In this document: piece by piece, positions 22,022 to 61,603 of the stretch
How the letters are laid out: the number at the start of each line of letters is the position of its first letter
Numbering within the stretch: the first letter of the stretch is position 1
Source of the DNA: Dehalococcoidia bacterium
Lineage (GTDB): Bacteria > Chloroflexota > Dehalococcoidia > Tepidiformales > Tepidiformaceae
Assembly: GCA_022827945.1 (NCBI GenBank)
Contig: JAJEIT010000035.1
Location: 62,001 to 126,000 of the forward strand
Length of the DNA stretch: 64,000 nt
Direction: 5' to 3'
The notes under the pieces: model-generated
Told to the model about the DNA's origin: nothing
Databases searched by the model: none
Seen by the model: the letters and a program-made list of their open reading frames with translations, nothing else
Translations under genes and position numbers: made by a program

Positions 22022-22088
22022 CCTCAGCCACGCGCCAGCGGGGCGCTCTCCTCATCCTCAGCCGTGCGTCAGCACGGCGCTCCACTCG
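22022..22088 (-). repeat. Hairpin repeats directly after DinB copy 2 stop
   Basis: Read in the gene's direction, the TGA is followed by the box GAGTGGAGCGC, a hairpin (GCCGTGC-GTCA-GCACGGC, 22061-22078), CTGAGGA, then GAGGAGAGCGC and a second hairpin (22026-22043, one mismatch) ending in CTGAGGA. The same architecture lies after DinB copy 3 and on both sides of the 61-kb region. Confidence 0.8.
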
Positions 22089-22678: not shown

Positions 22679-22747
22679 CCCCTCAGCCACGCGCCAGCGG
22701 GGCGCTCTCCTCACCCTCAGCCGTGCGTCAGCGCGGCGCTCCACTCG
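22679..22747 (-). repeat. Hairpin repeats directly after DinB copy 3 stop
   Basis: Same two-unit structure as at 22022-22088: after TGA come GAGTGGAGCGC, a hairpin (GCCGTGC-GTCA-GCGCGGC, 22720-22737, one G-U pair), CTGAGG, GAGGAGAGCGC and a second hairpin ending CTGAGG. Differences between the two copies are few, which fits recent duplication. Confidence 0.8.
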
Positions 22748-28800: not shown

Positions 28801-28927
28801 GAAGAGTGGATAGTGGCTGGTGATTGGTGAGTAGTTGGCTATCGGCCCGCGCCTGGCTTTCGCCTACTCCTCACCGACCACCGACCACCGACCTCCGCGA
28901 GCGAAGCGAGCCACCATCCACCACTCA
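28801..28927 (-). repeat. Composite repeat region between glcF and mfd
   Basis: The 127 bp hold two inverted arms rich in GTAGTG/GTGGAT-like words (28803-28840 and 28911-28945, the latter running into the glcF C-terminus). Between them is a short CCACCGA tract (28872-28893) followed by CGCGAGCGAAGCGAGCC. The tract plus its GC tail recurs near 60.9 kb, and a degenerate tract near 46.8 kb. No gene is seen here. Confidence 0.65.
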
Positions 28928-46765: not shown

Positions 46766-46783
46766 ATGAGCTGGCCCGCACAA

Positions 46784-46816
46784 ACCACCGACCACCGATC
46801 ACAGACCACCGGTCAC
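46784..46816 (-). repeat. Degenerate CCACCGA tract
   Basis: Three or four imperfect copies of CCACCGA/CCACCGG with ATCACAG interruptions. The same heptamer forms nine copies at 60.9 kb and about three at 28.9 kb. It lies 3' of the zinc-ribbon gene in the same orientation as at the other two sites. Confidence 0.55.
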
Positions 46817-57547: not shown

Positions 57548-59525
57548 GACGCCACCTCCCCTGCCAGGCTCCCCGCAGGGCGACCAGTACCAGCACGATA
57601 CTCGCGCCCGCCGCCGCCCCAAGCACGATCCAGGGCGTGGCGCCGCCCGGCTCCTGCTCGAACCGCGTTGGTAGCGCGACCGGCGTCTGCCCGGCCTCGG
57701 GCGCGGCCTCCCGGACGGTAGCCGTCGTCGCGCCCGGAGCTGCCGTGGGCGCTGCCTCGGCCGCGACCGGCGTCTGCGCCTCCGATTGGGCTGCTGTCGC
57801 CGTTGCGGCTGCGAACACGTTGCCGCTCCCTGGCGACGGCCGCAGGGTCACGCCCCAGCGTCCCTCGCCGGCGACGGCCTCGTAAGCGCGGGCGCCGAGC
57901 GTCGCGCCGGACCCGGCGGCGGCAGGTGGTGGGTCGAACACCTCCCTATTCTCGCCAAACGACAGCGCATCGACGACTTCGCCCGTCGGGGACAGCAGAC
58001 GAATCGTGTCTCCCGCGTTGTTCAGACCGTTGCCGATCGTCCCGTCCGGCGCTCGCACCACGAGCACGTTCACCGGCAGGACCGCCGCTTCCGCCGCGAC
58101 CACCACGTACCCGCCCGGCGGCACTTCCACCCCCGGCAGCGCATCGACCGAGCTCGCATCGCCGATCGCCCACCCCGCCGTGCTCACGACCACCGAAGCC
58201 GTGTTCACCAGCTCGACCCACTCGTAGGCGCGATCCACCCCCGGCTCGACCGGGTCCGCGAGCACCTCCGAGAGCCGCAGCGCGAGCGGCCCCACTTCCT
58301 CCCCCTCCCCACCATGAGTCGGGCTCGGTGTCGCGACAGCCCTGGGCTCAGGGGTCGGCGTCGGTGTTGGGGTCGAGGTCGGTGTCGTGGGAGCAGCCGG
58401 AGGCGTCGGGGTTGGCGTTGGCGTCGGCGTAGCCGTCGGGGGTTGTGTGGGTGTTGGTGTCGGTGTCGGCGTCGGCGTCGGTGTCGGTGTCGGAGTGGGA
58501 GTCGGCGTGGGAGTCGGTGTTGGGGTCGGTGTTGGCGTGGGTGTGGGTGTGGGTGTCGGAGTAGGTGTAGGAGTGGGCGCCTCCCCGACCCCGAACCACG
58601 CGTCGTCGAACACCGCCACCGCCCCGCTCGAGGACCCCGGCTGGAACATCAACCGCAACACCGCCGACCGCGCCCCCTCCGGCGCCCGTGCCGGCCCTAC
58701 CGACAGCGCCGTCCACGACCGGCTCCCCGACCCCTCCCCCGTCACCGTGCGCACCTGCCGCCCGCTCCCGTCCCCGGACGCGTACCAGGCGATCCGCAGG
58801 AACACCTCGCCCCGCCCCGTCACCACCTGCCCCCACGCCGACGCCTCATACCAGGCCCCGCCCTCGACCGTGACCGCCTGGTACAGCCACTTCGTCGATG
58901 TGGTCGTCGACCTGAGGATGGCTGCCCGCTCCCCCGTGAACGGCAGCGCCACCACCCCCAGGCCCCCGCCCTGGCCCTGCCACCCCACCGGCCTCCCCTC
59001 CTGCCGCTCCTCGAACCCGCCGTTGTACAGACCCGGCCCGATGGGATGAGGCGTCGGCGTTGGCGTGGGGGTCGGAGTCGGGGTCGGAGTGGGCGTCGGG
59101 CGCACCGTGACCGGACGCGGCGCCGCAACCTGCGCGACCCCCAACCCTTCGAGGCTCGTCCCCGCGCACCCCGCCGGCCCCGCCACCCGCACCGTCGCGA
59201 TGTACAGCGCTGCCCCCGCCGGCGCGACCGTGCTCGCCGTGAGGGTCACGGGGCTCCCGGACAGACTCGCCGGGTGTGCCGCCGTCGCGATCGGGCGAGC
59301 GTTGTCGTCGAGGATCTCCAGCGTCAGAACCGCTGTCTGCGCCCCCTCCCCCGGACGCACCGTCACCGACGCCCGGTACGTCGCTCCCGCCGCCGCCACC
59401 CCGCTCACCCGCCCGCACTCCCCGCGCTCCTGCCCGCGAGCCGATCCGCCCCAGTCCCAGCCCAGCACGACGACGGCCACGCACGTGGCCGCAACCACTG
59501 CCGCCAGCACCCTTCCGACGAGCAA
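57537..59525 (-). CDS. Surface protein with TP-rich linkers and lamin-tail domain
   Basis: A 662-aa exported protein. Signal segment 1-27; beta-rich domain to about 140; TP linker; a jelly-roll, CBM-like domain beginning YNGGFEERQ; a second TP linker of about 80 residues; a lamin-tail domain with RLSEVLADP and AYEWVELVN; and a C-terminal membrane helix ([23 protein letters not shown], about 625-648) with an Arg-rich end. It is probably anchored outside the cell. TTG start is supported by TAGGCT 6 nt upstream. It overlaps rluB-cmk by 11 bp. Confidence 0.85.
58440..58578. repeat. Coding hexanucleotide repeat (Thr-Pro linker)
   Basis: Degenerate GTCGGN/GTGGGN hexamers on the plus strand encode alternating Thr-Pro on the minus strand. 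Copy number may vary between strains. Confidence 0.8.
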
Positions 59526-59666: not shown

Positions 59667-60743
59667 ATGAAGGCCGCAGTCATGTACGGCGTCGACCAGC
59701 CCCTCGTCATCGAGGACGTTCAGCTCGACGAGCCCCGCGCCAACGAGGTCCTCATCCGCACCAGCGCCACCGGCGTCTGCCACTCCGACCTCCACTTCAT
59801 GGAGGGCAAGTACCCCATGGCCTGTCCCGCCGTCCTCGGACACGAGTCCGCCGGCGTCGTCGAGCAGATCGGCGACGAGGTCACCAACGTCCAGGTCGGC
59901 GACCGCGTCGTCGTCGCCTTCGTCGCCTCCTGCGGCTTCTGCGACAACTGCGTCCAGGGCCGCCCCTTCATCTGCATCAACACCAACCGCCTCGGCCGCC
60001 AGGACCGCCTCAGCATGAACGGCCAGGTCGTCACCCAGTTCGCCGGCATGTCCGCCTTCGCCGAGCAGCAGCTCGTCAGCGCCACCGCCCTCGTCCACGT
60101 CCCCGACGACGTCCCCATGGAGGCCGCCGCCCTCGTCGGCTGCAGCGTCATGACCGGCGTCGGCGCCGCCACCAACACCGCCCGCGTCCAGGCCGGCCAG
60201 ACCGTCGCCGTCGTCGGCTGCGGAGGCGTCGGCCTCAACGTCATCCAGGGTGCCGTCGCCGCCGGCGCCTCCCGCGTCATCGCCGTCGACATGCTCGAGA
60301 ACAAGCTCGCCGCCGCCAGAGAGTTCGGCGCCACCGACGTCGTCGATGCCTCCCAGGGCGACCCCGTCGAAGCCGTCAAGGGACTCGTCCGTGGCGGTGT
60401 CGACTACGCCTTCGAGGCCATCGGCCTCGTGCAGACCGCCGAGCAGTGCTTCGAGATGGCCAAGCGCGGCGGACGCGCCGTCATCGTCGGCATGCTCCCC
60501 TTCGACTCCCAGGTCACCATCCCCGGCGCCGCCTTCCTCCAGGAGAAGGGCATGATCGGCAGCTTCTACGGCTCCACCCGCCAGACCTACGACATGGCCT
60601 GGCTCATGGAGCTCTACCGCCAGGGACGCCTCAAGATCGACGAGCTCATCTCCCGCCGCTACGAGCTCGGCCAGATCAACGAAGCCTACGACGCCCTCAA
60701 GGCCGGCGAGGTCAACCGCAGCGTCCTCGTCCTGGAGAACTGA
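59667..60743 (+). CDS. Zinc-dependent alcohol dehydrogenase
   Basis: A 358-aa MDR alcohol dehydrogenase. Catalytic zinc ligands are Cys in GVCHSD and GHESAG; the structural zinc loop is CGFCDNCVQGRPFIC. NAD motif VGCGGVGLN near residue 180. It is similar to the aryl-alcohol or mycothiol-type ADH group. The TGA stop lies inside the first box of a hairpin repeat array. Confidence 0.9.
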   Translation: MKAAVMYGVDQPLVIEDVQLDEPRANEVLIRTSATGVCHSDLHFMEGKYPMACPAVLGHESAGVVEQIGDEVTNVQVGDRVVVAFVASCGFCDNCVQGRPFICINTNRLGRQDRLSMNGQVVTQFAGMSAFAEQQLVSATALVHVPDDVPMEAAALVGCSVMTGVGAATNTARVQAGQTVAVVGCGGVGLNVIQGAVAAGASRVIAVDMLENKLAAAREFGATDVVDASQGDPVEAVKGLVRGGVDYAFEAIGLVQTAEQCFEMAKRGGRAVIVGMLPFDSQVTIPGAAFLQEKGMIGSFYGSTRQTYDMAWLMELYRQGRLKIDELISRRYELGQINEAYDALKAGEVNRSVLVLEN

Positions 60744-60869
60744 GGAGAGCGCTCGCCGCTGTCGCGCTGAGTGGAGCGCGCCGCTACCGCGCCGCTGAGG
60801 AGAGCGCTCGCCGCTGCGCGTCTCGCTGAGGAAAGCGCCCGGCTACCGCCGTGCTGAGTGTTCCGGCGC
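60740..60869 (+). repeat. Post-stop hairpin repeat array (5 units)
   Basis: Five CTGAG boxes at 60740, 60767, 60795, 60826 and 60854 (spacing 27-31) are each followed by GAGAGCGC, TGGAGCGC or a close variant and then a GC-rich, partly self-complementary segment. The ADH stop codon is part of the first box. The array lies in the sense direction of the ADH gene. Confidence 0.75.
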
Positions 60870-60901
60870 ATTGCACTCTCTGCGCCCCACCCCGATCGTC
60901 T

Positions 60902-60964
60902 CCACCGACCACCGACCACCGACCACCGACCACCGACCACCGACCACCGACCAGCGACCACCGC
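60902..60964 (+). repeat. Tandem CCACCGA heptamer repeat
   Basis: Seven perfect copies of CCACCGA followed by CCAGCGA and CCACCGC. It ends at the palindrome GCGAGC-GAA-GCTCGC (60963-60977). The repeats resemble the tract at 28.9 kb, including the tail. Confidence 0.85.
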
Positions 60965-60984
60965 GAGCGAAGCTCGCCAACCCC

Positions 60985-61126
60985 CACTCAGCGCGACGCA
61001 GTCGCGCGCTCTCCTCAGCGAAGCGCCGGCGAAGCCGGCGCAAGCGCTCTCCTCAGCCGCGTGGCAACGCGGCGCTCCACTCAGCCCTGCGCAGCAGGGC
61101 GCTCTCCTGGCCGAAGGCAGCCGGCG
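60985..61126 (-). repeat. Post-stop hairpin repeat array after peroxiredoxin
   Basis: Read from the peroxiredoxin stop, boxes GGAGAGCGC/TGGAGCGC and CTGAG bracket four perfect hairpins: 61084-61100 (GCCCTGC), 61056-61073 (GCCGCGT), 61023-61041 (GCGCCGGC) and 60991-61007 (GCGCGAC), with loops GCA, GGCA or GAA. Stem sequences differ but pairing is kept. The stretch 60744-61126 holds no gene. Confidence 0.8.
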
Positions 61127-61603
61127 TCAGCCGGCGACGCAGGCCAAAACCGGACCGTAGTCCGGCAGCTCCACCACCGCCGGCGCCGTCTCGATATGCG
61201 CCACGTTCCCGTCCCCGTCGACCACGACGACCACGCGGTTCGCCATGTTCATCCCCGGCAGCAGCACGCCGTACGCCTCCGCCGTCGCCCCGATCGGGTT
61301 GAAGTCGCTCAGGACCGGGTAGCTCACGCCCGTCTGCTGCGACCAGGCCGCCAGCGTCCAGGTGTTGTCTGTCGAGATCGCGACCGTGACCGCGCCCTCG
61401 AGGCTCCCCAGCTGCTCCTCGATGATCGGGAGCTGGTTGCTGCACACCGGCGAGAACGCCGCCGGCACGAAGTTGATGACAACCGTCGACCCGCGATGGT
61501 CGCTCAGCTTGAACGGCCCCGGATCGCCCATCGGGTTCTGGGGAAGCTCGAAATCGGGGGCCGCGTCGCCCACCTTCAAAGTCGCCGTCTCAGACATATC
61601 CAC
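61127..61603 (-). CDS. Peroxiredoxin (AhpE-like)
   Basis: A 158-aa thioredoxin-fold peroxidase. The peroxidatic Cys is in PAAFSPVCSNQL near residue 54, with the Pro and Ser of the active site. A C-terminal Cys (LACVAG) may act as resolving residue. It reduces hydroperoxides. TACTGT is 11 nt before the ATG. Confidence 0.87.
   Translation of the reverse strand: MDMSETATLKVGDAAPDFELPQNPMGDPGPFKLSDHRGSTVVINFVPAAFSPVCSNQLPIIEEQLGSLEGAVTVAISTDNTWTLAAWSQQTGVSYPVLSDFNPIGATAEAYGVLLPGMNMANRVVVVVDGDGNVAHIETAPAVVELPDYGPVLACVAG

Follow-up and report, generated by a model that had tools for sequence, protein, structure and literature searches.

The hairpin repeats described here are a genus-specific, previously uncatalogued family in an uncultured genus of Dehalococcoidia. 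They came to attention in the window, which is the whole analysed stretch of DNA of 64,000 nucleotides, and the data bear out a hairpin family that occurs in many copies, carries compensatory changes and is in strong phase with stop codons in the sense direction. Among known repeats, the units most resemble the REPs of other bacteria. In our opinion, they are probably REP-like non-autonomous repeats, specific to the genus, that accumulate head-to-tail on the 3' side of T(R)A and leave hairpins in 3' UTRs.

Each unit has three parts: a purine head that is conserved (GAGAGC or TGGAGC), a hairpin rich in GC and a tail GCTGA. The consensus of the head across units is CTGAG[TG][GA]GAGCGC. The cores are 24–38 nt long and mostly intergenic, save a few at ORF ends. 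The common forms of arrays are an ordered set of four hairpins or two hairpins only, and a form with one hairpin was also found. Longer arrays show the recurrent order GAGAGC-H1, TGGAGC-H2, GAGAGC-H3 (with an internal loop) and GA[AG]AGC-H4, followed by the terminal TGAGTGGGG.

The first-pass annotation had placed such units after four genes of the window, and they were indeed found there: four after the genes of Zn-type alcohol dehydrogenase (ADH; 59667..60743, + strand, from the ORF list and sequence) and peroxiredoxin (Prx; 61127..61603, − strand, from the ORF list), and two after each of DinB copies 2 and 3. The orthologues of ADH in related Dehalococcoidia MAGs are 95–96% identical, and Prx is its syntenic convergent partner in congeners. 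In the ADH array (60741-60858, +), five TGA(G) motifs punctuate the four hairpin units, and the first of them is the ADH stop itself (60741-60743), doubling as the TGA of unit 1. On this strand follow each other TGA-GGAGAGC-hairpin (60741..60767), TGAG-TGGAGC-hairpin (60768..60795, a covariance-model match), TGAG-GAGAGC with the internal-loop type of hairpin (60796..60826) and TGAG-GAAAGC-hairpin with a terminal TGAG (60827..60858, 45 bits by the covariance model).

The Prx array (61107-60984) lies on the − strand, that of Prx itself. Its units are GGAGAGC with the stem GCCCTGC/GCAGGGC (61084..61107), TGAG-TGGAGC with GCCGCGT/ACGCGGC (61056..61083, a covariance-model match), AGCG...CGCT with GCGCCGGC/GCCGGCGC (61018..61055) and a unit with GCGCGAC/GTCGCGC and a terminal TGAGTGGGGG (60981..61017, also a covariance-model match), all on the − strand. 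A two-unit array of the type TGA CGAGTGGAGC-H-TGAGGGTGAGGAGAGC-H-TGAG follows one DinB-like copy (22682..22747, −), and a near-identical one follows the neighbouring copy (22023..22088, −). Since these two arrays are so similar and stand behind duplicated genes (the copies are 74–77% identical), they are not independent. An exact start at stop codons, as had been claimed, thus holds for ADH and takes the form of TGA and then CGAGTGGAGC at the DinB copies, but fails at Prx, where unit 1 begins 19 nt past the TGA (61129-61127); the array of the Prx orthologue in G003 begins at TAG-GAAAGC.

The facing ADH and Prx arrays are not mirror copies, being 77% complementary over 69 nt. The (ACCACCG)n heptamer stretch in the spacer between them (60902..60965) is a separate simple repeat. 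Similar heptamer repeats occur in intergenic spacers at 28865-28902 and 46779-46816 of the window, and the Prx/ADH site of array-less congeners has, in place of (ACCACCG)n, repeats of the TAGTGACTAGTGG type with complementary arms.

The stem covariation in the units is real. To avoid circularity, units were picked by their flanks alone (GAG[GT][GA][GA]AGC-N17/18-TGAG, a pattern with zero matches in the reversed control). The stem cells paired in 95% of cases in 18-nt units and in 97% in 17-nt units, as against 71% and 70% when the 3' arms were dealt to other units. The 5' arms differ among these units (24 and 17, i.e., 41 distinct stems), so that the hairpin sequence is free whereas pairing is kept, and hand-aligned sets of units agree with this result. 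Compensatory change is also seen in orthologous units: unit 2 of the Prx array has GCCGCGT/ACGCGGC in G000 and GCGGCGC/GCGCCGC in G003. The covariation stated earlier is confirmed. The ADH units pair imperfectly. Against shuffled controls, the two whole arrays of the window showed no gain in folding (z +1.38 and +0.03), and exceptional stability was rejected; hence, the evidence for structure is covariation and not energy.

The pattern GAGNNGAGCGCN{6,30}GCTGAG was found 44 times in the 2.85 Mb assembly, in comparison with one match of the reversed pattern. A covariance model (R1) built from 24 units gave 60 matches at E<=1 in this genome, most of them below 1e-4, and the number of units in it is about 53–60. 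Matches numbering 16–60, with the best E of about 1e-9 to 1e-12, were obtained in 8 out of 9 genomes of the genus, the unit-less congener being G008; sister genera gave near-threshold matches only. In a class-wide sample of 197 genomes, four were positive, all of them congeners, and none of the 193 genomes outside the genus passed E 1e-5. The records nearest to the window are Dehalococcoidia/Chloroflexi MAGs and one Tepidiformaceae MAG, and isolate names suggest that several related Dehalococcoidia records are sponge-associated. Rfam at the gathering score gave nothing in the window except a tRNA, a scan of viral contigs with the exact unit pattern found none, and nothing relevant about repeats of this sort in sponge symbionts or Chloroflexi came up in a limited literature search.

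The position of arrays was surveyed at 75 loci of eight genomes, selected as the strongest model matches and containing 193 units in 102 arrays; the counts of arrays rest on the model searches and these loci. The assemblies are fragmented except G004, which is a single contig. A finder of units based on regular expressions only was dropped in favour of the covariance model, as the reversed control outscored the real sequence in matches. Genes were called by a custom codon model seeded with ADH and Prx (GC3 0.905). Arrays shared by orthologous genes cannot be counted as independent: 46 clusters of neighbouring genes account for all 102.

A same-strand stop codon precedes 73 of the 102 arrays. 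The distance from this stop to the array start is 10 nt or less in about 68, with an offset of 0 in at least 37, the typical junctions being TAG-GAGAGC or TGA-GGAGAGC. GAG stands right after the stop in 24 of 70 array genes vs 9 of 468 other genes, and TAG is over-represented as the stop codon at arrays (57/70 vs 280/468, p=5e-4). Several arrays are located within an ORF's 3' end or extend over it, and at L059 and L111 the unit is inside the ORF end, its own TGA serving as the stop. Another seven arrays are directly preceded by the 3' end of tRNA-SeC or tRNA-Gly; two cases removed by eye as artefacts of regular expressions (L061 and L071) really follow tRNA-SeC. The 3' ends of arrays have no register with convergent stops, which are 5–55 nt away. 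A co-directional start codon within 60 nt of the array 3' end was found for only 15 of the 102 arrays, and GGAG is followed by a hairpin rather than a start codon; neither observation supports the earlier reading of GGAG as a Shine-Dalgarno sequence for coupling. Twelve pairs of arrays face each other over gaps of 42–729 bp, most of them after two convergent genes.

About 14 arrays run antisense to a divergent gene and start where the inner edge of its −10-like box lies, so that the orientation to genes is not always the same, contrary to what had been asserted from the window. The survey of positions relative to stops that the first-pass annotation proposed thus confirmed the phasing in sense and at the same time brought out these exceptions. 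The boxes, recognised by eye, sit a few nt before the divergent start codon; for example, a reversed GGAGAGC adjoins TACACT-N6-ATG. A common boundary of stops, −10-like boxes and tRNA junctions is T(G)A-GGAGAGC (the hyphen marks the array start), and the unit tail ...CTGA recreates its T(G)A. In several array-adjacent genes, TACACT-, TAGAAT- or TAAGAT-like boxes occur a few nt before the called start codons (array starts of L042, L050, L051, L092, L095, L101 and L106). Their closeness to these codons suggests that leaderless transcripts may exist in the genus.

The coexistence of arrayed and array-less species at shared loci (rplL, rpiB, purA, the Prx/ADH pair and an SDR pair) indicates that arrays come and go. 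At rplL, rpiB, purA and Prx/ADH, they were gained or lost between close relatives without gene loss. The sisters G002 and G003 are 97.3% identical over three genes, yet differ at rplL, rpiB and Prx/ADH. The convergent SDR genes are separated by TAA CTC CTA in the unit-less G008; in G000, some 300 bp lie between them and include two facing arrays. At the Prx junction, array-less G007 has TAG CGCCGGC followed directly by GAGCTGCGCTCGCGGTGG, and arrayed G000 has TGA CGCCGGC-array-GCGAGCTTCGCTCGCGGTGG; the array of G000 sits between the halves of G007 with extra bases on both sides, so a clean insertion of units was not seen at this site. The number of units at one site varies (0, 1, 2 or 4), and the same gene carries an array in up to five species. 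The rpiB arrays of G003 and G006 are near-identical, and some similar arrays may have been moved by recombination. The cargo between rpiB and thiolase differs among species. At this junction in G002 (L140), the convergent genes are parted by GCGCGGCGCTCTCC alone, which looks like the outcome of a deletion of the whole segment between a facing pair of arrays.

The REPs of other bacteria offer the closest comparison. GTAG-type REP families are described, in PMC3733652 and PMC2817692, as short, covarying and mostly located 3' of genes. According to PMC3733652, GTAG REPs lie downstream of genes, and flanking ORFs often take their TAG stop from the REP termini. For E. coli, earlier work cited in PMC12306157 proposed that 260 of 496 REPs, those within 15 nt of a stop, act in translation, and found that REPs under 16 nt from a stop reduce it. 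These statements in PMC12306157 and PMC3733652 contradict the view of the first-pass annotation that known REPs usually lack a phase with stop codons.

Similarly to GTAG REPs, as portrayed in PMC2817692, PMC3733652 and PMC8266576, the present units are GC-rich hairpins of 20–40 bp whose purine-rich head, on one side, is unpaired, and they are present in many intergenic copies (53–60 per genome); their stems are diversified with compensatory changes, they are mostly downstream of genes, and their termini often supply the TAG stop. Units of the type TAG-GAGAGCGCTCGC found here strongly resemble REPs of Xanthomonas, for example GTAGGAGCGCGCTCGCGCGCGA. TnpA-REP and IS200/IS605 enzymes cleave at CT in a guide-directed manner with fixed orientation (PMC8266576), and the units described here abut CT-GAG. 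Like the E. coli REP/BIME elements of the work cited in PMC12306157, the hairpins begin a few nt past the upstream gene's stop; the start is within 10 nt of it, inside the 15-nt range, in about 68 of 102 arrays.

There are also differences. The head is TGAG-GAGAGC or GTGG-AGC and not the fixed GTAG: GTGG is present in TGGAGC units and TGAGGAG in GAGAGC units, and GTAG arises solely when unit 1 follows a TAG stop. Stems differ almost from unit to unit, and copies are counted in tens, not hundreds. Head-to-tail rows dominate, whereas head-tail dimers are rare in GTAG families; the arrays run one way, unlike E. coli BIMEs with their alternating orientation, and inversion is limited to the 12 facing pairs. 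The genus also has no Y1 transposase, in contrast to GTAG REPs with their RAYT. CGTC-tagged REPs are likewise short tagged palindromes and are reported to lack a dedicated transposase (PMC3733652), but they have a different tag, and ordered rows at stops were not seen for them in the passages considered. Since the GTAG head and a RAYT were not found and the head-to-tail order differs, the units were filed as a new REP-like variant and not as members of the GTAG/RAYT group.

Mycobacterial MIRU repeats are tandem, oriented as the flanking gene and overlap stop codons. By description, the arrays may be alike in these respects, whereas MIRUs are not known to be hairpin units of the present kind.

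The preferred reading, REP-like repeats added on the 3' side of T(R)A, supposes that units or whole arrays were inserted by an event of fixed polarity, as in single-strand insertion of the IS200/IS605 or RAYT type. In this genome (GC 69%), the T(G)A that the array 5' end adjoins belongs mostly to a stop codon, to a sequence at a tRNA 3' end or to the inner edge of a −10-like box. Rows would grow in one direction because each unit ends with CTGA and recreates the site, and the exact register with stops and promoters would appear because only those insertions that disrupt no function persist. One directional insertion and a tolerance filter of a compact genome could in this way account for the register, the bias in orientation, the growth of rows head to tail and the antisense arrays at promoters. 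Most arrays would be transcribed as 3'-UTR hairpins starting 3–6 nt past the stop. By analogy with the E. coli REPs of the work cited in PMC12306157, such hairpins may fall inside the 15-nt window where translation is slowed, and they may also shield the mRNA 3' end.

A linked RAYT or another transposase had been suggested by the first-pass annotation. Y1/RAYT transposases (Y1_Tnp, PF01797) were found in none of the nine genomes of the genus; Y1 proteins are present in 17 out of 29 genomes of sister genera, and no unit occurs at the five best of these Y1 loci. With PF01797 absent from the genus and the Y1 loci free of units, RAYT linkage was rejected. As the nine genomes contain no Y1 enzyme, the mobilising agent should have been lost, be unrecognised or be of a different nature. 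A bolder version, in which a site-specific system without Y1 transposase writes ordered hairpin sets in one orientation 3' of stops, with T(R)A as the target, seems unlikely to us; if true, it would mean Y1-free targeted insertion through which the genus acquires modular 3' UTRs. Against the preferred reading count the lack of a Y1 transposase in the genus, the head, which is not the canonical GTAG, the extra bases on both sides of the Prx array and the recurrence of several arrays at one gene across as many as five species, also expected from selection for function.

Such selection is the essence of the nearest alternative, a dedicated terminator, 3'-processing or mRNA-stability module acting as sense RNA. 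The sense position at about 68 stops and seven tRNA ends, the recurrent order of modules, their presence at the same genes in up to five species and the compensatory changes between orthologous units agree with it, as does an array at rplL, a gene whose expression is expected to be high. It is nevertheless rather unlikely: there are only about 25 arrays per genome, they are gained and lost at the four loci named above without gene loss, about 14 are antisense at promoters, no T-run follows and whole arrays are no more stable than shuffles. A GC hairpin with a T-run, i.e., an intrinsic terminator, was absent from 60650-61200 of the window. The hairpins may have a role in the 3' UTR, as proposed earlier, but such a role cannot account for the antisense arrays that abut promoters.

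Growth without any transposition, by replication slippage and template switching on hairpins with spread among strains via homologous recombination of flanking genes, is improbable. Template switching keeps stems perfect and therefore mimics covariation; the variable number of units at one site, the near-identical rpiB arrays of G003 and G006, a recurrent module within hairpin loops and the lack of a transposase in the genus fit this scheme, which leaves unexplained the arrival at over 40 unrelated genes and the fixed T(G)A register at stops, tRNA ends and promoters. A larger mobile element of variable cargo, inserted between convergent genes, could also have facing arrays as its terminal inverted repeats, as the 12 facing pairs and the changing cargo between rpiB and thiolase might imply. 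We regard this as very improbable. Most arrays are solitary (78 of 102 lie outside any facing pair), which makes the reading weak; the window pair is not a mirror copy, and no conserved internal gene was noticed.

These data extend REP-like repeats with stop-codon register to Dehalococcoidia without Y1 transposase. The set of close relatives makes the gain, loss and compensatory change of 3'-UTR hairpins traceable site by site, and two questions become testable: what disperses REP-like repeats without RAYT, and whether hairpins at stop codons alter expression.

Two minor observations may be added. The − strand of 58400-59525 of the window encodes a protein with long low-complexity stretches of the Pro-Thr type, corresponding to (GGNGTN)n repeats. 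The loops of units contain another short module, CGCTCGACTGCT(G/T)CGCGCTCGCG, with some 10 variable bases in front of it. It was met 12 times, nearly always within unit hairpins and in one orientation, with no occurrence in the reversed control; its sites include L052 (~4096), L091 (3949 and 4011) and L060 (3982) on the − strand and L067 (4025) and L093 (4021 and 4160) on the + strand.
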